Assembly: GCA_027492635.1 (NCBI GenBank)
Contig: JAPUEH010000015.1
Coordinates: 9,254 to 59,020, forward strand
Length of the DNA: 49,767 nucleotides
Direction: 5' to 3'
Origin: Candidatus Saccharimonadota bacterium
GTDB taxonomy: Bacteria > Patescibacteriota > Saccharimonadia > Saccharimonadales > Saccharimonadaceae
Of this stretch, positions 19,491 to 33,408 are shown piece after piece. Position numbers and translations under genes: made by a program. Position 1 is the first letter of the stretch. Every line of letters starts with the position of its first letter. The notes below the pieces were generated by a model, which was not told the DNA's origin, did no database searches, and saw only the letters and a list, made by a program, of their open reading frames with translations.

Positions 19491-19808
19491 ATGGCCAAAG
19501 AAGAAGGCTTGAAAATCCGCATTCGCCTCAAGGCGTATGATCACAAAGTGATCGACCAATCAGCAAAACAAATCATCGACACGGCTGTGCGTACAGGTGC
19601 TGATGTAGCGGGTCCAATCCCACTTCCTACACGCCGTAGTACATTCACAGTGGTGAAGAGTCCACATGTATACAAAAAAGGTGGTGAAGCATTTGAAATG
19701 CGCGTACACAAACGTCTTATCGACATCACTAATGCGTCGCCAAAGACAATCGATAGTCTGCAAAATCTCAGCTTGCCAGCTGGTGTTGATGCAGAAATCC
19801 GCATGTAG
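19491..19808 (+). CDS. rpsJ: Ribosomal protein S10 (uS10)
   Basis: S10 is a 30S head protein that also acts as NusE in antitermination. The 105-residue product has the typical core: [56 protein letters not shown] and HKRLIDI. The ATG follows AAGGAG. In most bacteria rpsJ heads the S10 operon directly before rplC. Here it is a single-gene unit with its own promoter and a following hairpin, and rplC lies 5.9 kb downstream beyond a set of envelope genes. Confidence 0.98.
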
Positions 19809-25527: not shown

Positions 25528-25557
25528 TTGACGTCTACCCCTAATCTGTGCTATAGT
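25528..25557 (+). promoter_or_regulatory. S10-spc operon promoter
   Basis: TTGACG (25528-25533), an 18-bp spacer and the extended -10 TGC-TATAGT (25552-25557) drive rplC and the fourteen genes behind it. Confidence 0.8.
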
Positions 25558-25594
25558 CAAAAGGTTACTTTTATGTACAAAAAATATCAAGCGA

Positions 25595-25663
25595 CCTTGG
25601 TGAGTTGATAGGTCCCGGAGCTGGAGGCAACAAAAGCAGCAGGGAAACCAGTGGCCACCAAGG
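25595..25663 (+). promoter_or_regulatory. Structured leader of the rplC operon
   Basis: Three nested pairings can be read. P1 is CCTTGGTG (25595-25602) with CACCAAGG (25656-25663). P2 is GGTCCC (25611-25616) with GGG-aa-ACC (25642-25649). P3 is GCTG (25620-25623) with CAGC (25637-25640). The structure lies between the promoter and rplC, where an autoregulatory r-protein site would be expected. L4 or L3 as ligand is a guess. Confidence 0.6.
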
Positions 25664-25687
25664 ATTTTAAGTGGGAGAATGAGGGCT

Positions 25688-26302
25688 ATGAAAGCACTTC
25701 TCGGTACCAAAATTGGTATGACCCAAATCATCGGCGAAGATGGTCGTGTGACTCCAATCACACTCATCCAAGCTGGCCCTGTGACTGTGACTCAGGTAAA
25801 AACCGTTGAAACAGACGGTTACAACGCAGTGCAGGTAGCATATGGTGAGGGTAAGAACCTGAGCAAGGCCGTGGCTGGACATGTGAAGTCCGCCAAAGTG
25901 ACTCCGAAACATATTCGGGAAATCCGCGTCGCAGAACTACCTGAAGGTCTCAAGGTAGGCGACGTAATCGATGTAAACACGTTTGAACTGGGAGAGTTGG
26001 TTCAGGCGACGGGCACATCAAAAGGTAAAGGTTTTGCCGGTACGGTAAAACGACACAACTTTAATACAAGCGCAAGCTCTCATGGTGGCAACGGTGACGT
26101 ACGTCGCGTCGGCTCGATCGGCTCGATGTATCCACAAAAAGTCTTCAAGGGCAAACGAATGCCTGGCCGCATGGGACACGATCAAGTGACCGTGAAGAAC
26201 TTGGCAGTCGCGTACATCGACGCCGAGACAAATCTCATCGGGCTACGTGGCGCTGTACCAGGACCTCGCAAGGGCCTGATAGTAATCGGAGGCAAGGCAT
26301 AA
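25688..26302 (+). CDS. rplC: Ribosomal protein L3 (uL3)
   Basis: L3 nucleates 50S assembly and reaches toward the peptidyl transferase centre. The 204-residue protein begins MKALLGTKIGMTQI and has the internal block TSKGKGFAGTVKRHNFN, then SHGGNGDVRRVGSIGS and GKRMPGRMGHDQVTVKN. I chose the ATG at 25688 over an in-frame one at 25679 because it gives the standard N-terminus and has GAGGG just upstream. It is the first gene of a 15-gene operon; rpsJ is absent from its usual place in front. The stop overlaps the rplD start (TAATG). Confidence 0.97.
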   Translation: MKALLGTKIGMTQIIGEDGRVTPITLIQAGPVTVTQVKTVETDGYNAVQVAYGEGKNLSKAVAGHVKSAKVTPKHIREIRVAELPEGLKVGDVIDVNTFELGELVQATGTSKGKGFAGTVKRHNFNTSASSHGGNGDVRRVGSIGSMYPQKVFKGKRMPGRMGHDQVTVKNLAVAYIDAETNLIGLRGAVPGPRKGLIVIGGKA

Positions 26303-26913
26303 TGGCTGACACTACGACAACCAAGAAGACGACCCTACCAAAGGAAGTTTTCGCAGTAGAAGTGCCAAACCACGAACTACTGAAGCTGGCGTATGATTCA
26401 TACCTGGCAAACAACCGTCTCGCAAGCGCAACTACGAAAACTCGCGGCGAAGTAAGCGGCGGCGGCAAAAAACCATGGAAGCAAAAAGGTACTGGCCGTG
26501 CACGTTTTGGTAGCACACGCAACCCAATCTGGCGCACAGGTGGTATCGTATTTGGTCCACGCGGCAACGAAAACTACACCAAGAAGCTCTCTAAGACTTC
26601 TAAGCGTGTAGCAGTGAAGCAGGCGCTGACGCTTGCAAACGAAGCCAAGAAAATCACCGTCGACGATATTAAAACAACTGGCAAAACTGCTGAAGTTGCA
26701 AAATATCTGACAGATAAAAAACTCGACCGCAAGGTACTTGTTGTTGCAGAGAAAACTCCAGAGTTGATTCGCGCAACTGGCAATATCCAAGCTGTTCGAC
26801 TTGTAAGTCCAAGCTTCATCAGTGTCTACGACGTGCTCAACGCCGATCACATTGTGATTAGTGCCAAAGCGCTCGACACTATCAAAGCATGGCTGGTAGG
26901 AGGAGAGGCATAA
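26302..26913 (+). CDS. rplD: Ribosomal protein L4 (uL4)
   Basis: L4 lines the peptide exit tunnel and in some bacteria represses its own operon. The 203-residue protein contains the tunnel-loop block TKTRGEVSGGGKKPWKQKGT then GRARFGSTRNPIWRTGGIVFGP, and the conserved C-terminal DVLNADHIVISAKALD. Both ends overlap neighbouring genes by TAATG. It is a candidate ligand for the leader structure upstream of rplC, by analogy with the E. coli S10 leader. Confidence 0.97.
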   Translation: MADTTTTKKTTLPKEVFAVEVPNHELLKLAYDSYLANNRLASATTKTRGEVSGGGKKPWKQKGTGRARFGSTRNPIWRTGGIVFGPRGNENYTKKLSKTSKRVAVKQALTLANEAKKITVDDIKTTGKTAEVAKYLTDKKLDRKVLVVAEKTPELIRATGNIQAVRLVSPSFISVYDVLNADHIVISAKALDTIKAWLVGGEA

Positions 26914-27233
26914 TGACACTCATTAGCGTTATCCCACGTGCGACTGAAAAGGCGTACACACAGATTACAGAAAAAAATACCTACATCTTCGACGTGCCTC
27001 TTACGGCCAACAAGCAGCAGATTGCTGAAGCTGTTGAAGCACAGTTTGAAGTCAAGGTTGCGGGTGTCAAAGTTGTTGTCCAACAAGGTAAAGCCGTTCG
27101 TTTTTCACGAGGCAAAAACCGCTATCCTGGTACAACGAAACGTAAAGACACCAAAAAAGCCTATGTAAAGCTTGCCGAGGGCAGCTCTATCCAGGTGTTT
27201 GAGCAACCAGCAGAAAGTGAGGAGAAGAAATAA
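26913..27233 (+). CDS. rplW: Ribosomal protein L23 (uL23)
   Basis: L23 sits at the tunnel exit and is the docking site for trigger factor and SRP. The 106-residue protein shows ISVIPRATEKAYTQ, NTYIFDVPLTANKQQIAEAVE and the basic loop GKNRYPGTTKRKDTKKAYVKL. The ATG at 26913 overlaps the rplD stop, with AGGAGG about 9 bases before; a longer in-frame start inside rplD is not needed. Confidence 0.96.
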   Translation: MTLISVIPRATEKAYTQITEKNTYIFDVPLTANKQQIAEAVEAQFEVKVAGVKVVVQQGKAVRFSRGKNRYPGTTKRKDTKKAYVKLAEGSSIQVFEQPAESEEKK

Positions 27234-28072
27234 TGCCGATTAAAGCATACAACCCAACTACTCCTGCACGTCGTGGTATGACAAGCCAAGATTTGAGCGA
27301 AATCACGACTAAGAAACCACTCAAAAGCTTGATTAAGACAAAAAAGCAAAATGCAGGCCGCAACAACCAAGGTCGCATTACTGTGCGTCACCGTGGTGGT
27401 GGTGTCAAGCGACACTATCGTTTGCTCAATCACAAATTGGCGGATGGTCTGGAGCTTACGATCGAAGAGATCGAATATGATCCAAACCGATCTGCGCGTA
27501 TTGCGCGTGTCAAAGATCAGCATGGTTTGTATCACTACATCTTGGCTGACACACAGATGCAAAAAGGCAAGAAAATCGCCAGCGGCGAAGAAGCACCTAT
27601 CGAAGCTTCAAACCGTATGCCACTTGCTCGTATCCCTGTCGGTACACAAATCTACGCTATCGAGCTCCAAAAGGGCAAGGGCGCACAGATGGTACGCAGC
27701 GCTGGTACAAAAGCACAGCTTATGGCTAAAGAAGGCGATTACGCGCAGATCAAATTGCCATCTGGCGAAGTTCGCCGCGTACGTCTAGAATGCGAAGCGA
27801 CTATCGGTGTGGTTGGCAACGTTCAGCACCAAAACGTCAAAATCGGTAGCGCAGGTCGCAAACGTCGCAAGGGTATTCGCCCAACTGTTCGTGGTGTCGT
27901 GATGAACGCCGCAGACCACCCACACGGTGGTGGTGACGGTGGACGTCATGGTAGTGGTAAACCACCACGCACACCATGGGGTCAGCTCACGCTCGGCTAT
28001 CGTACACGACGTCGCAAAGATACTGGCAAGCTTATTGTTAAAAGTCGCCATGATGCGAAGAGGAAGAGGTAA
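27233..28072 (+). CDS. rplB: Ribosomal protein L2 (uL2)
   Basis: L2 supports subunit joining and the peptidyl transferase centre. The 279-residue protein has IKAYNPTTPARRGMTSQDLS, GRNNQGRITVRHRGGGVKRH, RNPVD-type block VVMNAADHPHGGGDGGRHGS with the conserved His, and the basic C-terminal tail. The start overlaps the rplW stop (TAATG) with GAGGAG upstream. Confidence 0.98.
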   Translation: MPIKAYNPTTPARRGMTSQDLSEITTKKPLKSLIKTKKQNAGRNNQGRITVRHRGGGVKRHYRLLNHKLADGLELTIEEIEYDPNRSARIARVKDQHGLYHYILADTQMQKGKKIASGEEAPIEASNRMPLARIPVGTQIYAIELQKGKGAQMVRSAGTKAQLMAKEGDYAQIKLPSGEVRRVRLECEATIGVVGNVQHQNVKIGSAGRKRRKGIRPTVRGVVMNAADHPHGGGDGGRHGSGKPPRTPWGQLTLGYRTRRRKDTGKLIVKSRHDAKRKR

Positions 28073-28075
28073 GAT

Positions 28076-28342
28076 ATGAGTCGATCACTCAAGAAAGGTC
28101 CATTCGTCGACTTCAAGCTCGCGAAAAAAGTGGCGGCGCTTAGTTCAGACGATCGTACTGTTATCAAAACTTGGGCACGTGCAAGTACAATCACACCAGA
28201 TATGGTGGGTCGTACGATTGCCGTACACAACGGTCGTGTCCACGTACCTGTGTTTGTCACGGAAAATATGGTTGGCCACAAGCTCGGTGAGTTTAGCCCA
28301 ACTCGTAAGTTCCGCAAACACGGCGGAAAGGATAAAAAATAA
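28076..28342 (+). CDS. rpsS: Ribosomal protein S19 (uS19)
   Basis: S19 is in the 30S head next to S13. The 88-residue protein is standard: [55 protein letters not shown] and [14 protein letters not shown]. It starts 3 bases after rplB and overlaps rplV by TAATG. Confidence 0.97.
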
Positions 28343-28758
28343 TGGCTGAAGCAACGACAGTTCGTGCATACATCAAAGGCATCGACCTGACGCCACGAAA
28401 AGTGAGTGTTGTGGCAAGCCTCGTACGCGGCCGCAGCGTTGCCGATGCGTTGGTGATCTTGGATCACACGCCTCGCCGTGCTGCCAAGCCTGTACGCAAA
28501 GCGATTGCATCGGCTGCTGCCAATGCAACGAACAATCACGGCTTGGACGCCAAGACGCTTGAGATTACTACTCTCAGCGTGACAGCTGGTCCTCGCCTCA
28601 AGCGCTTTAAGCCGCACATGCGTGGCATGGCGCTACCTTTCCAGAAGAAAACGAGCCATATTTTGGTAGAAGTTACTGGTGCTGAGAAGCCAAAGAAAAA
28701 GCCAGCTGCCAAAAAAGCTGAGGCTGTAACACCAGCTAAGAAAGAAGAGGAGAAGTAG
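28342..28758 (+). CDS. rplV: Ribosomal protein L22 (uL22)
   Basis: L22 lines the exit tunnel with a long beta hairpin. The first 110 residues are the normal L22 domain (YIKGIDLTPRKVSVVASLVR, ASAAANATNNHGLDAKTLEI, GPRLKRFKPHMRGMALPFQK, TSHILVEV). The last 28 residues are a Lys/Ala/Glu-rich extension (KPKKKPAAKKAEAVTPAKK) that is not part of the core and is probably disordered. The start overlaps the rpsS stop. Confidence 0.96.
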   Translation: MAEATTVRAYIKGIDLTPRKVSVVASLVRGRSVADALVILDHTPRRAAKPVRKAIASAAANATNNHGLDAKTLEITTLSVTAGPRLKRFKPHMRGMALPFQKKTSHILVEVTGAEKPKKKPAAKKAEAVTPAKKEEEK

Positions 28759-28760
28759 AA

Positions 28761-29399
28761 ATGGGACAGAAAGTAAACCCAATTAGCTTCCGCCTGCAAG
28801 TTCACAAAAACTGGGATTCTCGCTGGTTTGCCAACAAGCGTGATTTTAGCAAGTGGCTCGCAGAAGATGTAAAAATTCGCGATACAATCGAAAAGAAATT
28901 TGCATCTCGCCCGACTATCGATCGCATCGAGATTGAACGCTCTGCCAATCAAGTGACTGTCACGATTCACACCGCAAAAGCAGGTGTGGTGATTGGTCGC
29001 GGCGGTGCAGGCGTGCAAGAGCTCAAATCGCAGCTCGAAAAAATCGCAAGCTTGCCTGTGCGTATCAACATCGAAGAAGTGAAGCGCCCAGAGCTTTCAG
29101 CGAAACTTGTTGCAGAAAACATCGCTCGCCAGCTTGAGCGCCGTATCAACTTCCGCCGCGCAGTCAAAATGTCTGCACAAAACACGATGAATGCTGGCGC
29201 TAAAGGTATTCGTATCGAGGTCGCAGGGCGACTCAACAACGCCGAAATGGCTCGCCGCGAAAAGGTAATCGAAGGCTCTGTGCCACTCCACACGCTCCGT
29301 GCGGATATCGATTTCCACTCAGCGCGTGCGATGTGCGCAGGTGTTGGTATCATCGGTGTAAAGGTATGGATTTACAAAGGTGAAAGGAGTGACGTCTAA
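28761..29399 (+). CDS. rpsC: Ribosomal protein S3 (uS3)
   Basis: S3 forms part of the mRNA entry channel. The 212-residue protein begins [13 protein letters not shown], has the KH-type block [20 protein letters not shown], and the C-terminal domain with [20 protein letters not shown] and [25 protein letters not shown] lies upstream of the start. The stop overlaps the rplP ATG. Confidence 0.97.
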
Positions 29400-29812
29400 T
29401 GCTACTCCCTAAGAAAACCAAATACCGCAAGACGTTTAAAGGCAAAAACGATGGTGTCGCAACTCGCGGTAACTACATCGCTTTTGGTGATTATGCATTG
29501 CAGTCACAATCAAACAACGATGTGACGAGCCGCCAGATTGAGTCAGCTCGTCAGGCGATGACCCGCTACATCAAGCGTGGTGGTAAAATCTGGATTCGTA
29601 TCTTCCCACACACACCTGTTACCCGCAAGCCAGTCGGCCTCAAGATGGGTATGGGCAAGGGTAACCCTGAGTTTTTCGCAGCCAAGGTAAAAGCTGGTAC
29701 TGTGATGTTTGAAATGAAGGGTGTTGAGGAAGAAGTGGCACGAGAAGCAATGCGTCTCGCGGCTCACAAGCTACCAGTAAAAACTAAATTTATCAAGCGA
29801 GAGGAGGCGTAA
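29399..29812 (+). CDS. rplP: Ribosomal protein L16 (uL16)
   Basis: L16 lies near the A-site tRNA elbow and the peptidyl transferase centre. The 137-residue protein has [16 protein letters not shown], the [20 protein letters not shown] block with [20 protein letters not shown], and [20 protein letters not shown]. The start overlaps the rpsC stop. Confidence 0.97.
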
Positions 29813-29814
29813 CC

Positions 29815-30048
29815 ATGGCAAAAGCAGCTACAAAAGCGACTAAAGCTAAAGACGCAGCCGAAGTGAAATCTCTTGAGGATTTGCAAAAAGATCTGGCTGC
29901 AAAGCAGCTTGAAATCGTAGAAGCTCGCCGCGGACTTGCGGCTGGTGAATTGCAAAACCCACGAGTAATCACAAAAACTCGCAAAGAAATTGCGCGCCTG
30001 CACACTGCAATCCGAGCAGCTGAGCTGGCCGAGAAGGGAGATAAGTAA
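29815..30048 (+). CDS. rpmC: Ribosomal protein L29 (uL29)
   Basis: L29 is a small helical protein near the tunnel exit beside L23. The 77-residue product has an Ala/Lys-rich N-terminal extension ([18 protein letters not shown]) followed by the core [20 protein letters not shown] and [27 protein letters not shown] precedes the ATG by about 6 bases. It lies between rplP and rpsQ, its usual position. Confidence 0.93.
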
Positions 30049-30049
30049 T

Positions 30050-30334
30050 ATGGCCAAGACATTGACTGGTATCGTGACTTCGGACAGCCGCGACAAGACT
30101 ATTACCGTCACTGTAACTAGTCGTGAAACGCACCCACTCTATGGCAAGCAGTATACTGTGAGTCGTAAATACACTGCACACGACGAAAACAACGAAGCCA
30201 AAAATGGCGACAAGGTTCGTATCATCGAGACTCGTCCTATTTCTAAGACAAAATCTTTCAAGCTTGACCTCATCGAAGAGAAATCTCGTGGTTCTGTAGA
30301 GCTCAAAGAAGATATCGAGGAGGTGAGTGCGTAA
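30050..30334 (+). CDS. rpsQ: Ribosomal protein S17 (uS17)
   Basis: S17 is an early-assembly 30S protein with an OB fold. The 94-residue protein begins [20 protein letters not shown] and carries [20 protein letters not shown] and [20 protein letters not shown]. The ATG at 30050 is one base after the rpmC stop; a longer in-frame start inside rpmC is rejected. It overlaps rplN by TAATG. Confidence 0.96.
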
Positions 30335-30702
30335 TGTTGCAACAAGAATCACGCATCAAGATCACCGATAACAGCGGTGCCAAAGAGGCATTGATTATCC
30401 GTGTGCTTGGTGGTACACGTCGTCGTTTTGCGGGTGTTGGCGATATTGTTGTCGTTACAATCAAGGATGCCAATCCTGGCGGTAACATCAAGAAGAAAAC
30501 GGTGCAAAAAGCCGTGATCGTGCGCACACGCAACCAAATCAAACGAAAAGACGGTTCGACCATCGCATTTGACGACAACGCAGCTGTGATTATCGGTGAA
30601 GATAAGAATCCAAAGGCGACACGTATTTTTGGACCTGTACCACGCGAACTGCGCGATATGGGTTACGCGAAAATCATTAGCTTGGCTCCGGAGGTACTCT
30701 AG
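30334..30702 (+). CDS. rplN: Ribosomal protein L14 (uL14)
   Basis: L14 is at the subunit interface. The 122-residue protein is highly conserved: [70 protein letters not shown] and [10 protein letters not shown]. The start overlaps the rpsQ stop. Confidence 0.97.
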
Positions 30703-30703
30703 T

Positions 30704-31024
30704 ATGGCACGTATTCGCAAAGACGATATCGTCAAACTCGTAAGTGGTACGCACAAAGGTAAGACCGGTAAGGTCGTGGCCGTGCTGCCTAAAAAAGACG
30801 CAGTCCTCATCGAAGGCGTGGGTGTTGGTAGCCGCAAGGTCAAGCCAAGCCAGCTCAACCCTCGTGGCGGCGTCAAAGATATTCATGTACCAACTCCGCT
30901 CTCAAAGGTTGCGCTCGTCGTTGACGAAAAAGCTGCTACGAGTAGCCGTGTTGGCTACAGGAAAAATGATGACGGCAAGACAGTCCGTGTCGCTCGTCAA
31001 CTAAAAAATAAGGAGATTAAATAA
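30704..31024 (+). CDS. rplX: Ribosomal protein L24 (uL24)
   Basis: L24 initiates 50S assembly. The 106-residue protein has the KOW segment IRKDDIVKLVSGTHKGKTGK, the block VNPRGG-like SQLNPRGGVKDIHVPTPLSK and a basic C-terminus. The ATG at 30704 has GGAGG about 10 bases upstream and is one base after the rplN stop. Confidence 0.95.
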   Translation: MARIRKDDIVKLVSGTHKGKTGKVVAVLPKKDAVLIEGVGVGSRKVKPSQLNPRGGVKDIHVPTPLSKVALVVDEKAATSSRVGYRKNDDGKTVRVARQLKNKEIK

Positions 31025-31611
31025 TGGCTACAGCTACCAAAAGTACTGCCTACACTCCTCGTCTGAAAGCTTTGTATGACACTCAGGTGCGCAAAGAACT
31101 CCAGACCGAACTCGGACTCGAGAATGTACACCAAGTACCAAAGCTCGAGAAAATTGTCGTGAGCGTAGGACTTGGCAAGAACAAAGATGACAAACGTCAT
31201 TACGAAGTGGTAAAAAACACTTTGACAAAAATCACTGGTCAAGCGCCTATTGACCGCATGGCAAAGAAATCTATCGCTGGTTTCAAGATTCGTGCAGGCA
31301 TGAACCGCATTGGTATCAGTGTGACGCTTCGCGGCGCCAACATGTATGAATTCCTCGACCGTTTTGTCAACGTGGCGATGCCTCGTATCCGTGACTTCCA
31401 CGGTGTCGGCGCAAAAGCATTTGACAAGGGCGGTAACTACAACGTCGGTATCAATGATCAGTCGATCTTCCCAGAACTCACGTTTGAAGAGACGCAAGTA
31501 ATCCACGGCCTGCAAGTGACATTTGTTATCGACAATGAAGACAAGGCTCATAGCCGTGCACTGCTCGAAAAATTCGGCGTACCGTTTGAAAAAGAAGGAG
31601 GACGACGCTAA
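31024..31611 (+). CDS. rplE: Ribosomal protein L5 (uL5)
   Basis: L5 binds 5S rRNA and contacts S13 in bridge B1b. The 195-residue protein shows [72 protein letters not shown] and the C-terminal [20 protein letters not shown]. Both ends overlap neighbours by TAATG. Confidence 0.97.
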
Positions 31612-31880
31612 TGGCTAAGAAATCAGCAATCGCACGCGATGAAAAGCGCAAGAAGATGATTCTCAAAAACGCTGCAAAGCGTGCTGAACTCAAAGAGATG
31701 GGCGATCAGGATGGTTTGCAGAAACTTCCTCGCAATTCGAGCCCAACTCGCTGGAAAAACCGTGATGTATTGAGCGGTCGTCCGCATGCCTACATGCGCC
31801 GATTTGGTCTCAATCGTATTAACTTCCGTCAACTGGCATCAGAAGGCAAGATTCCAGGCGTACGAAAGAGTAGTTGGTAA
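31611..31880 (+). CDS. rpsN: Ribosomal protein S14, zinc-independent form (uS14)
   Basis: S14 is in the 30S head. At 89 residues it belongs to the longer, cysteine-free class: [40 protein letters not shown] and the conserved [21 protein letters not shown]. The CxxC...CxxC zinc ribbon of the short form is absent. That agrees with the cysteine-free L36 and RpoC in the same window. The start overlaps the rplE stop. Confidence 0.96.
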
Positions 31881-31898: not shown

Positions 31899-32300
31899 AT
31901 GTCAATGCAAACTACAGATCCAATCGCCGACCTTTTGACTCGTATTCGTAACGCAAAAATGGTTGGTAAAACAGAAGTTCGCGTCCCAGCGAGCAAGATG
32001 AAAGAAGTGATTGCCAAGCAACTCGTCAAAAGCGGCTACCTTACAGCCGTCAAGCGCGAAGCTGGCAAGCCACGCGACACGCTGGTCGTGACCATCAACA
32101 AAGATGGCGAAAACAGCACCATCAACGAGATCACTCGTCTCAGTAAGCCTGGCCGACGTGTCTACGTCAAAGCCGACGAAATCCCCCGTGTCAAAAGCGG
32201 TCGTGGTATCGTGCTTGTCTCTACGTCGAAGGGTGTGGTGACTGGTCAAGAAGCTGTCAAGCAGCGACTTGGTGGAGAGCTGTTGCTTAAGGTGTACTAG
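31899..32300 (+). CDS. rpsH: Ribosomal protein S8 (uS8)
   Basis: S8 binds the central domain of 16S rRNA and represses the spc operon in E. coli. The 133-residue protein has TTDPIADLLTRIRNAKMVGK and the C-terminal block KSGRGIVLVSTSKGVVTGQE. AAGGAG lies about 10 bases before the ATG; a second in-frame ATG is two codons on. It is the last gene of this transcription unit: a terminator follows, and rplF, normally next, is 1.3 kb away under its own promoter. Confidence 0.96.
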   Translation: MSMQTTDPIADLLTRIRNAKMVGKTEVRVPASKMKEVIAKQLVKSGYLTAVKREAGKPRDTLVVTINKDGENSTINEITRLSKPGRRVYVKADEIPRVKSGRGIVLVSTSKGVVTGQEAVKQRLGGELLLKVY

Positions 32301-32351: not shown

Positions 32352-32400
32352 AGACTGGTAGTTACTCTGTTGTCTTGGTATCTTGTGATATGATGAAGCT

Positions 32401-32772
32401 ATGTCTAAAATGAGCTATGAAAAACATGAGGAGCCAGAGCGTCAAGGTATGATAGTGAAAAGTGAGCGAGCGTTGTTCGTGACATTCGCTGCAATGTCTG
32501 GTATTCTCTCTTTTTGTGCAGGAAGTGATGACGATAGCAGGGGTATTTACGATAGTTATTTTCCATGGTTCATTTGCCGAGTGTAATCCAACACTGCAAG
32601 AGTTACTCAGGGAATATGCATAGGCGCGATTAATGCAGTATATAGTATCTTGCCATTTGAGCTTGCTCTTGGCTATATTCTTGTGGCTAGTGCAATAGGT
32701 GCTATTGGCGAAGCTTTTGTAGGATATGCTGCAGCAAGACTCAATAGGACTTCGAATGATTTCTCTGGTTAA
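32401..32772 (+). pseudogene. Probable frameshifted small membrane-protein gene
   Basis: An intact-looking start (extended -10 TGA-TATGAT at 32386-32394, ATG at 32401) opens a frame that stops at 32586. Membrane-protein-like coding continues in the +1 frame (VQEVMTIAGVFTIVIFHGSF, about 32516-32578) and then returns to the first frame (GAINAVYSILPFELALGYIL then VASAIGAIGEAFVGYAAARL, to TAA 32770-32772). The first shift falls at a run of five T (32511-32515); the second lies somewhere in 32585-32620. Joined together they would give a protein of about 120 residues with three hydrophobic segments. This could be a decayed gene or an assembly error. The family is unknown. The rest of the 32301-32848 gap shows only the operon terminator. 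Confidence 0.45.
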
Positions 32773-32848
32773 TAGACTAATCTTTAAGCGCAATACAGTT
32801 AAAATGTGCATGAATAATGCGTACCTGAAAATTGAAGTGAATTAAGAT

Positions 32849-33334
32849 CTACTTATAGACATTTGTTGAGTGAACGCGTGCAACAATGCAGCGTTCTGGT
32901 TTAGTTTCGGGACGACAAGGCGATGCATATACTGGCTTGTATGCATAGTCACGAGCCTCTGATGTTTCAAATGATACGATAAAGCCCCTGTTATTTACAC
33001 TGTCCGTCTGTATCAATATTGCGCTAGTTTCGGAGGATACCTGGATGTAGTATTTAGTAGTTGCATTGAGATTCTTTGCCGTCTCTTCAATGATTTTAGT
33101 TTTGTCTCCCTCTGCGGCATAGACATATTCATTATTGCACGACGTTACTTGGATGAACTTACAGAAGGGACTGGGATGTTCAACGTTGATGAGCTGTAGT
33201 GGCGATAGCCTCATGGCTCCAGCCTGGACAGCTGTTCGAACTATGAAAGGAGTAAGGAGAATAAACAATATCATAGTTAAGGTGATAGTTACGAGGAGTG
33301 TAACTCCAGCGATAAGAACTTTTCGACTGGCCAT
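32849..33334 (-). CDS. Small single-pass membrane protein, unknown function
   Basis: This 161-residue protein has one strong membrane segment (about residues 6-28, VLIAGVTLLVTITLTMILF) and an extracytoplasmic domain with four Cys (FCKF, TSCNN, ASPCRP, RCIV) that could form disulphides. No family is recognised. The ATG at 33334 is set by TGC-TATACT, whose -10 (33346-33341, minus strand) ends 6 bases upstream; there is no Shine-Dalgarno site. The gene lies in an AT-rich island inside the spc cluster, opposite in direction to the ribosomal genes. Confidence 0.65.
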   Translation of the reverse strand: MASRKVLIAGVTLLVTITLTMILFILLTPFIVRTAVQAGAMRLSPLQLINVEHPSPFCKFIQVTSCNNEYVYAAEGDKTKIIEETAKNLNATTKYYIQVSSETSAILIQTDSVNNRGFIVSFETSEARDYAYKPVYASPCRPETKPERCIVARVHSTNVYK

Positions 33335-33408
33335 AGCAAGAGTATAGCACATATTGTCTAGAGGTGTTCTTGGTATAGCACATTGTTATCGCACTCGATG
33401 ACTATTTC

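Follow-up and report, generated by a model that had tools for sequence, protein, structure and literature searches.

A candidate S8 operator resembling 16S rRNA helix 21 at the head of the rplC–rpsH operon in Saccharibacteria

The rplC locus and its leader

What is the role of the structured RNA that precedes rplC in a bacterium whose rpsJ gene lies elsewhere, and which ribosomal protein might it serve? The question is raised by a stretch of 49,767 nucleotides (the window, here meaning the whole of the DNA analysed) from a genome of 1.0 Mb whose nearest named relatives are Saccharibacteria, a group of bacteria of ultra-small size, its L3 being 93% identical to that of Saccharibacteria MAG AER2_9. 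An earlier reading made from the letters alone (the sequence-only reading) had placed three nested stems between a promoter and rplC, in an operon from which rpsJ had moved away, and had suggested a new class of ribosomal protein leader. The setting is as described there: the leader does sit between a promoter (25528-25557), which many relatives share at the corresponding position, and rplC, while rpsJ (19491-19808) is found some 6 kb upstream of the leader, behind tuf and with neighbours of its own. Transcription is expected to start at about 25563-25566. The open reading frame called for rplC begins at ATG 25679, and relatives keep only ATG 25688 (MKALLGTK). The gene order of the operon (Table 1) was taken from Pfam matches and ORF calls, the match for rpmC being slightly below the cut-off, and co-transcription is presumed from that order. 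The ORFs that follow the end of rpsH at 32300 are convergent to the operon. Two such ORFs (32362-33352) intervene between rpsH and rplF (33580), so that the usual spc order is broken, and the first of them has no Pfam match.

Table 1. Features of the leader and of the operon that follows it, in window coordinates
Feature	Position	Strand	Remarks
Promoter	25528..25557	+	-35 TTGACG, 18-nt spacer, extended -10 TATAGT; also present in many relatives, equally far from the leader
P1, 5' strand	25595..25602	+	CCUUGGUG; 8 bp with CACCAAGG
P2, 5' strand	25605..25609	+	UUGAU; covariation
Putative S8 core, 5' strand	25610..25614	+	A25610=A595, G25611=596, G25612=G597, U25613=U598, C25614=C599
Bulged inner stem	25611-25616 with 25642-25644 and 25647-25649	+	GGUCCC with GGG and ACC; two-base bulge A25645-A25646
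Upper stem and variable apical hairpin (contains the 4-bp stem)	25615..25643	+	sequence and length vary freely in relatives
4-bp apical stem	25620-25623 with 25637-25640	+	GCUG/CAGC
Putative S8 core, 3' strand, first half	25644..25646	+	G25644=G639, A25645=A640, A25646=641
Putative S8 core, 3' strand, second half	25647..25649	+	A25647=A642, C25648=C643, C25649=644
P2, 3' strand	25650..25654	+	covariation
P1, 3' strand	25656..25663	+	CACCAAGG; pairs with CCUUGGUG
U-tract	25665..25668	+	directly 3' of P1; conserved
Shine-Dalgarno	25673..25677	+	GGGAG; 10 nt 5' of the conserved start codon
rplC (L3)	25688..26302	+	start codon as kept in relatives
rplD, rplW, rplB, rpsS, rplV, rpsC, rplP	within 26302..31880	+	presumed same transcription unit
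rpmC, rpsQ, rplN, rplX, rplE, rpsN	within 26302..31880	+	presumed same transcription unit
rpsH (S8)	31899..32300	+	last of 15 genes; proposed ligand

Two of the three stems, P1 and the bulged inner stem, were recovered where they had been placed and covary among relatives, whereas the 4-bp apical stem is kept only among near relatives. Relatives have a further helix, P2, of a variable 3-5 bp, interposed between P1 and the bulged stem; in the window's own genome it is weak, with G-U pairs and one mismatch. Folding of the 78-nt hairpin gave z = -2.08, with 4 of 200 shuffles equally good, and folding of the 120-nt leader gave z = -0.14; single-sequence folding is thus weak evidence for the structure, whereas the comparative evidence set out below is strong. 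That ACUU, close to the 5' end, might pair at long range with UUUUAAGU beyond P1 was considered and rejected, since many relatives have AAAU in place of AAGU and yet an unchanged ACUU.

Covariation and distribution

Among 61 close genomes, 33 yielded the region in a DNA search; in these the leader sequences differ and the helices are kept. When 19 leaders were aligned with MAFFT, an alignment not fitted to the structure, 91.3% of cells were paired against 79.4 +/- 1.1% after shuffling, two-sided changes were seen at 15 of the 20 pairs, and displacement of the partners by 1-3 columns lowered pairing to 33-52%. For 89 leaders of the family, aligned by covariance model, the corresponding figures were 91.7% paired against 74.1 ± 0.6% shuffled, with a covariation score of 0.546 against 0.211 ± 0.009; two-sided changes occurred at all pairs of P1 (94.7% of cells paired) and at all four pairs of P2 (82.5%). 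Since model-fitted alignments lean towards the structure, a structure-blind alignment of 135 leaders was added and all 3,741 column pairs were scored: helix pairs make up eight of the top ten, and a ninth joins positions 596 and 641 (16S numbering), which are tertiary neighbours in the S8 core discussed below. Two P1 pairs reached E<0.05 against a tree-aware null, and that these alone pass singly is attributable to the null, which was home-made and appears severe. The sequence-only reading had proposed covariation among related leaders as the check on its structure, and the helices covary in each of the three sets (19, 89 and 135 leaders): the leader structure is real and conserved.

Among 80 named Saccharibacteria loci picked solely by L3 similarity, 72 have the leader upstream of rplC. 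At E<=1, covariance model R1 matched 178 of 295 genomes of the family, the weakest matches being chance; for the order, model R2 at E<=0.05 matched 155 of 295 genomes. After a short calibration these E-values are rough. Low-scoring matches followed by no ribosomal gene (L071-L073, L079-L081, L205) were treated as false positives. For the other families of the order, the leader stands directly upstream of rplC at 39 of 40 loci, and a genome from another family of the same class (G837) also matches the model. Phylum-wide, matches outside the class are restricted to one family, f101, in whose leaders P1 has been rewritten to CGAG/CUCG, with the core and the U-rich tail kept. One genome (G115) has two different rplC leaders (L063, L064) at the ends of two contigs, which suggests that the assembly is a mixed bin.

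The conserved core and its likeness to helix 21

The bulged stem contains an invariant core, A-[A/G]-G-U-C / G-A-[A/U]-A-C-[U/C], numbered here after 16S rRNA. Across 92 leaders the core residues are A595 in 88, G597 in 92, U598 in 89, the pair C599-G639 in 90, A640 in 91, A642 in 90 and C643 in 92; position 641 is A in 63 and U in 28, and the pair 596-644 is G-C in 62 and A-U in 29. Positions that vary do so together, A at 641 accompanying G-C at 596-644 in 52 leaders and U accompanying A-U in 19, which reads as covariation between two S8 base triples. Recognition by S8 involves the base triples A595-(A596-U644) and (G597-C643)-U641 together with the invariant A642 (PMC4176348). Each of these recognition positions corresponds to an invariant or covarying position of the leader, in which all that an S8 core requires (A595, the 596-644 pair, G597-C643, U598, A640 and A642) is present.

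A pattern scan of related rRNA loci located the core, together with the helices on both sides of it, solely at helix 21 of 16S rRNA (6 of 12 16S loci) and in none of five 23S loci. An example of helix 21 from related genomes is GUUAAGU…AAACUGGC, and the partial 16S gene at a contig end of the window's own genome (G000:C9:1-800, L133) has GUAAAGU...AAACUCAC. The leader and helix 21 share the core residues 595-599/639-644, their strand order and the A bulge; they differ in their flanking helices, which are unrelated, in the G-C pair often found at 596-644 in the leader, and in the pair that closes the core, which is C-G in the leader and other pairs in the Saccharibacteria 16S sequences inspected. 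The S8 encoded by the operon retains the VSTSKG loop, which contacts A642.

The distance from the leader to rpsH is about 6-7 kb in 47 of 50 other genomes, with rpsH downstream on the same strand and contig, and the remaining three have no rpsH in cis, with apparent contig breaks. One genome, G006, has a split operon: here the motif precedes rpmC-rpsQ-rplN-rplX-rplE-rpsN-rpsH, and no match to it was found on the other contig, which carries rplC-rplD-rplW-rplB-rpsS-rplV. In this single genome, then, the motif follows rpsH and not rplC, and the unit it heads is without rplD, a gene that the leader's operon does hold in the window. Binding by L3, L4 or L22, as implied by the sequence-only reading, finds no support here, for it is the S8 site of helix 21 that the core reproduces, and in G006 the motif remains with the half that carries rpsH, apart from rplC, rplD and rplV. 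The evidence points instead to S8 as the ligand.

Proposed control by S8 and its alternatives

We consider it highly probable, on comparative grounds, that the leader, in its place before the first gene of the rplC...rpsH operon, is an autoregulatory operator for S8 (uS8) which mimics the core of helix 21 and through which all 15 genes are repressed; S8 very probably restrains, from its 5' end, the operon whose last gene encodes it. We infer S8 binding, repression and its route as follows. S8 made in excess of the available 16S rRNA would be left free, and free S8 would bind the core (25610-25614 / 25644-25649) and stabilise the P1-P2-P3 hairpin, which in turn would lower expression of the whole operon. 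In the window's family the likely route would be a hindered start of translation, the downstream genes following by coupling or by mRNA decay: P1 there ends about 10 nt before the Shine-Dalgarno sequence and a median of 24 nt before the start codon, and therefore the hairpin, once stabilised, could obstruct the 30S subunit. Elsewhere in the order, a median of 52 nt separates P1 from the start codon, with no Shine-Dalgarno sequence adjacent, and T at +1 to +4 after P1 is conserved at 95-100% (84-96% in the window's family), so a block of translation cannot be the sole route. A start codon within UUUUUAUGU after P1 was considered for these other families and discarded, as it lacks a Shine-Dalgarno sequence and its frame is inconsistent. 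Some folds pair the 5' strand of P1 with the Shine-Dalgarno sequence instead, an arrangement which, if true, would make S8 an activator.

The most serious alternative keeps S8 as the ligand and alters the route: S8 would stabilise the long hairpin, which runs straight into the U-tract, and RNA polymerase would terminate before rplC. Outside the family, 95-100% of leaders keep the U-tract directly after P1; there no Shine-Dalgarno sequence is adjacent and the start codon lies a median of 52 nt away. This fits attenuation, for which control of the E. coli S10 leader by L4 and of B. subtilis rplJL by L10(L12)4 offers precedents. However, the tract has only 4-5 U and is interrupted by AAGUGGGAG in the window's family, a terminator scan found none at the leader, and no competing anti-terminator was identified; attenuation is accordingly rated a real possibility, well short of an even chance. 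Given S8 as the ligand, hindrance of translation has roughly an even chance of being the route, attenuation again a distinctly smaller one, and mRNA decay takes the rest. It is tempting, if somewhat doubtful, to suppose an ancient S8-responsive attenuator, in which binding by S8 would make of the helix-21 mimic, with the conserved U-tract, an S8-dependent terminator; if so, one small-subunit protein would set the transcription of a 15-gene, mostly large-subunit operon from its 5' end.

Explanations that dispense with S8 fare much less well. The operon encodes other candidate ligands (L4, L3, L22, L2, S17, L14, L24, L5 and S14), and the S10 operon of E. coli is under L4 control, so that the likeness to the S8 site might be coincidental; yet the invariant positions are exactly those that S8 recognition requires, five 23S loci contained no copy of the core with its flanking helices, and the split operon of G006 has the motif ahead of rpmC…rpsH but not ahead of rplC-rplD-rplW-rplB-rpsS-rplV, all of which makes another ligand very improbable. 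Slighter still is the prospect that the hairpin, stable, close to the 5' end and provided with a U-tract, acts as an mRNA-stability or terminator-like element with no protein ligand, for such an element has no need of invariant A595, A640 and A642, nor of a 2-nt bulge that is kept while every flanking helix is rewritten. As for a chance fold in a sequence conserved for other reasons, the z of just -0.14 for the 120-nt leader would allow it, but compensatory changes in nearly every pair and recurrence throughout the order refute it, and we give it practically no credence. The preferred reading remains that of an operator for S8. It would provide a concrete, order-wide candidate S8 operator in a candidate-phylum lineage and, if true, would mean that S8, not L4, controls both S10-type and spc-type genes.

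Autoregulation by S8 through mimicry of 16S rRNA is a known principle; the new element is that the site heads a fused S10–spc operon. The S8 operator of E. coli lies in the spc operon at the start of rplE (Cerretti 1988; Merianos 2004; as cited in PMC4176348 and PMC10931766). The rplE region of E. coli contains GAAACUGC and GCAAGUCC, the same core strings as the leader, and the two sites are alike in the core GAAACU(GC) with (GC)AAGUC, in the base triple A-(A-U), although the commonest leader core has A-(G-C) there, in the bulged A and in lying on an mRNA that encodes S8. They differ in that the E. coli operator is internal to its operon, at the third gene, whereas the leader heads a fused S10-spc-like operon before rplC; its core strands are swapped (U+11 before A+80/A+81), whereas the leader has the 16S strand order; and only the leader sets the core within a three-helix hairpin followed by a U-tract. 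Because strand order and surroundings differ, an independent origin of the same mimicry is suggested, though not proven. The L4-binding S10 leader of E. coli likewise heads an operon holding rplC and rplD and serves autogenous control of the same genes, but it lies upstream of rpsJ, which here is outside the operon, and has another structure and ligand; the present leader is not an L4-type S10 leader. The L4 r-leader of Archaeoglobi, a prediction rated borderline and with L4 as a guessed ligand (Eckert & Weinberg 2020, PMC7247131), also lies directly upstream of rplC, but it is archaeal and is likened by position alone.

An Rfam search, proposed with the original observation, matched no family at the gathering score and gave nothing meaningful up to E 10; the E. 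coli S8 site is likewise without an Rfam match. The text of the Eckert & Weinberg survey (PMC7247131) names no S8 or Saccharibacteria leader, no earlier report of the leader was found in the open-licence papers searched, and a 2024 review describes S8 control outside E. coli and Vibrio as unknown and phylogenetic studies as not advanced (PMC10931766). Covariation, conservation across the order, the lack of an Rfam match and absence from the r-leader surveys read support the surmise that the structure before rplC is a distinct and previously undescribed ribosomal protein leader class, and a covariance model is ready for an RNA family missing from Rfam.

Two further elements were seen in relatives of the window. 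A perfect 14-bp palindrome, TTATTACGTAATAA, occurs in 26 of 89 family leaders (for example L033), just past the predicted transcription start and about 21 nt 5' of the start of the model, though not in the window itself; it may be a 5' hairpin or operator, and some other leaders have ATTACGCGTAAT at its position. Many leaders of the other families (L178-L212) carry a conserved UAACAGAGG(U) in the apical loop, without counterpart in the window's family, which may be a further contact.
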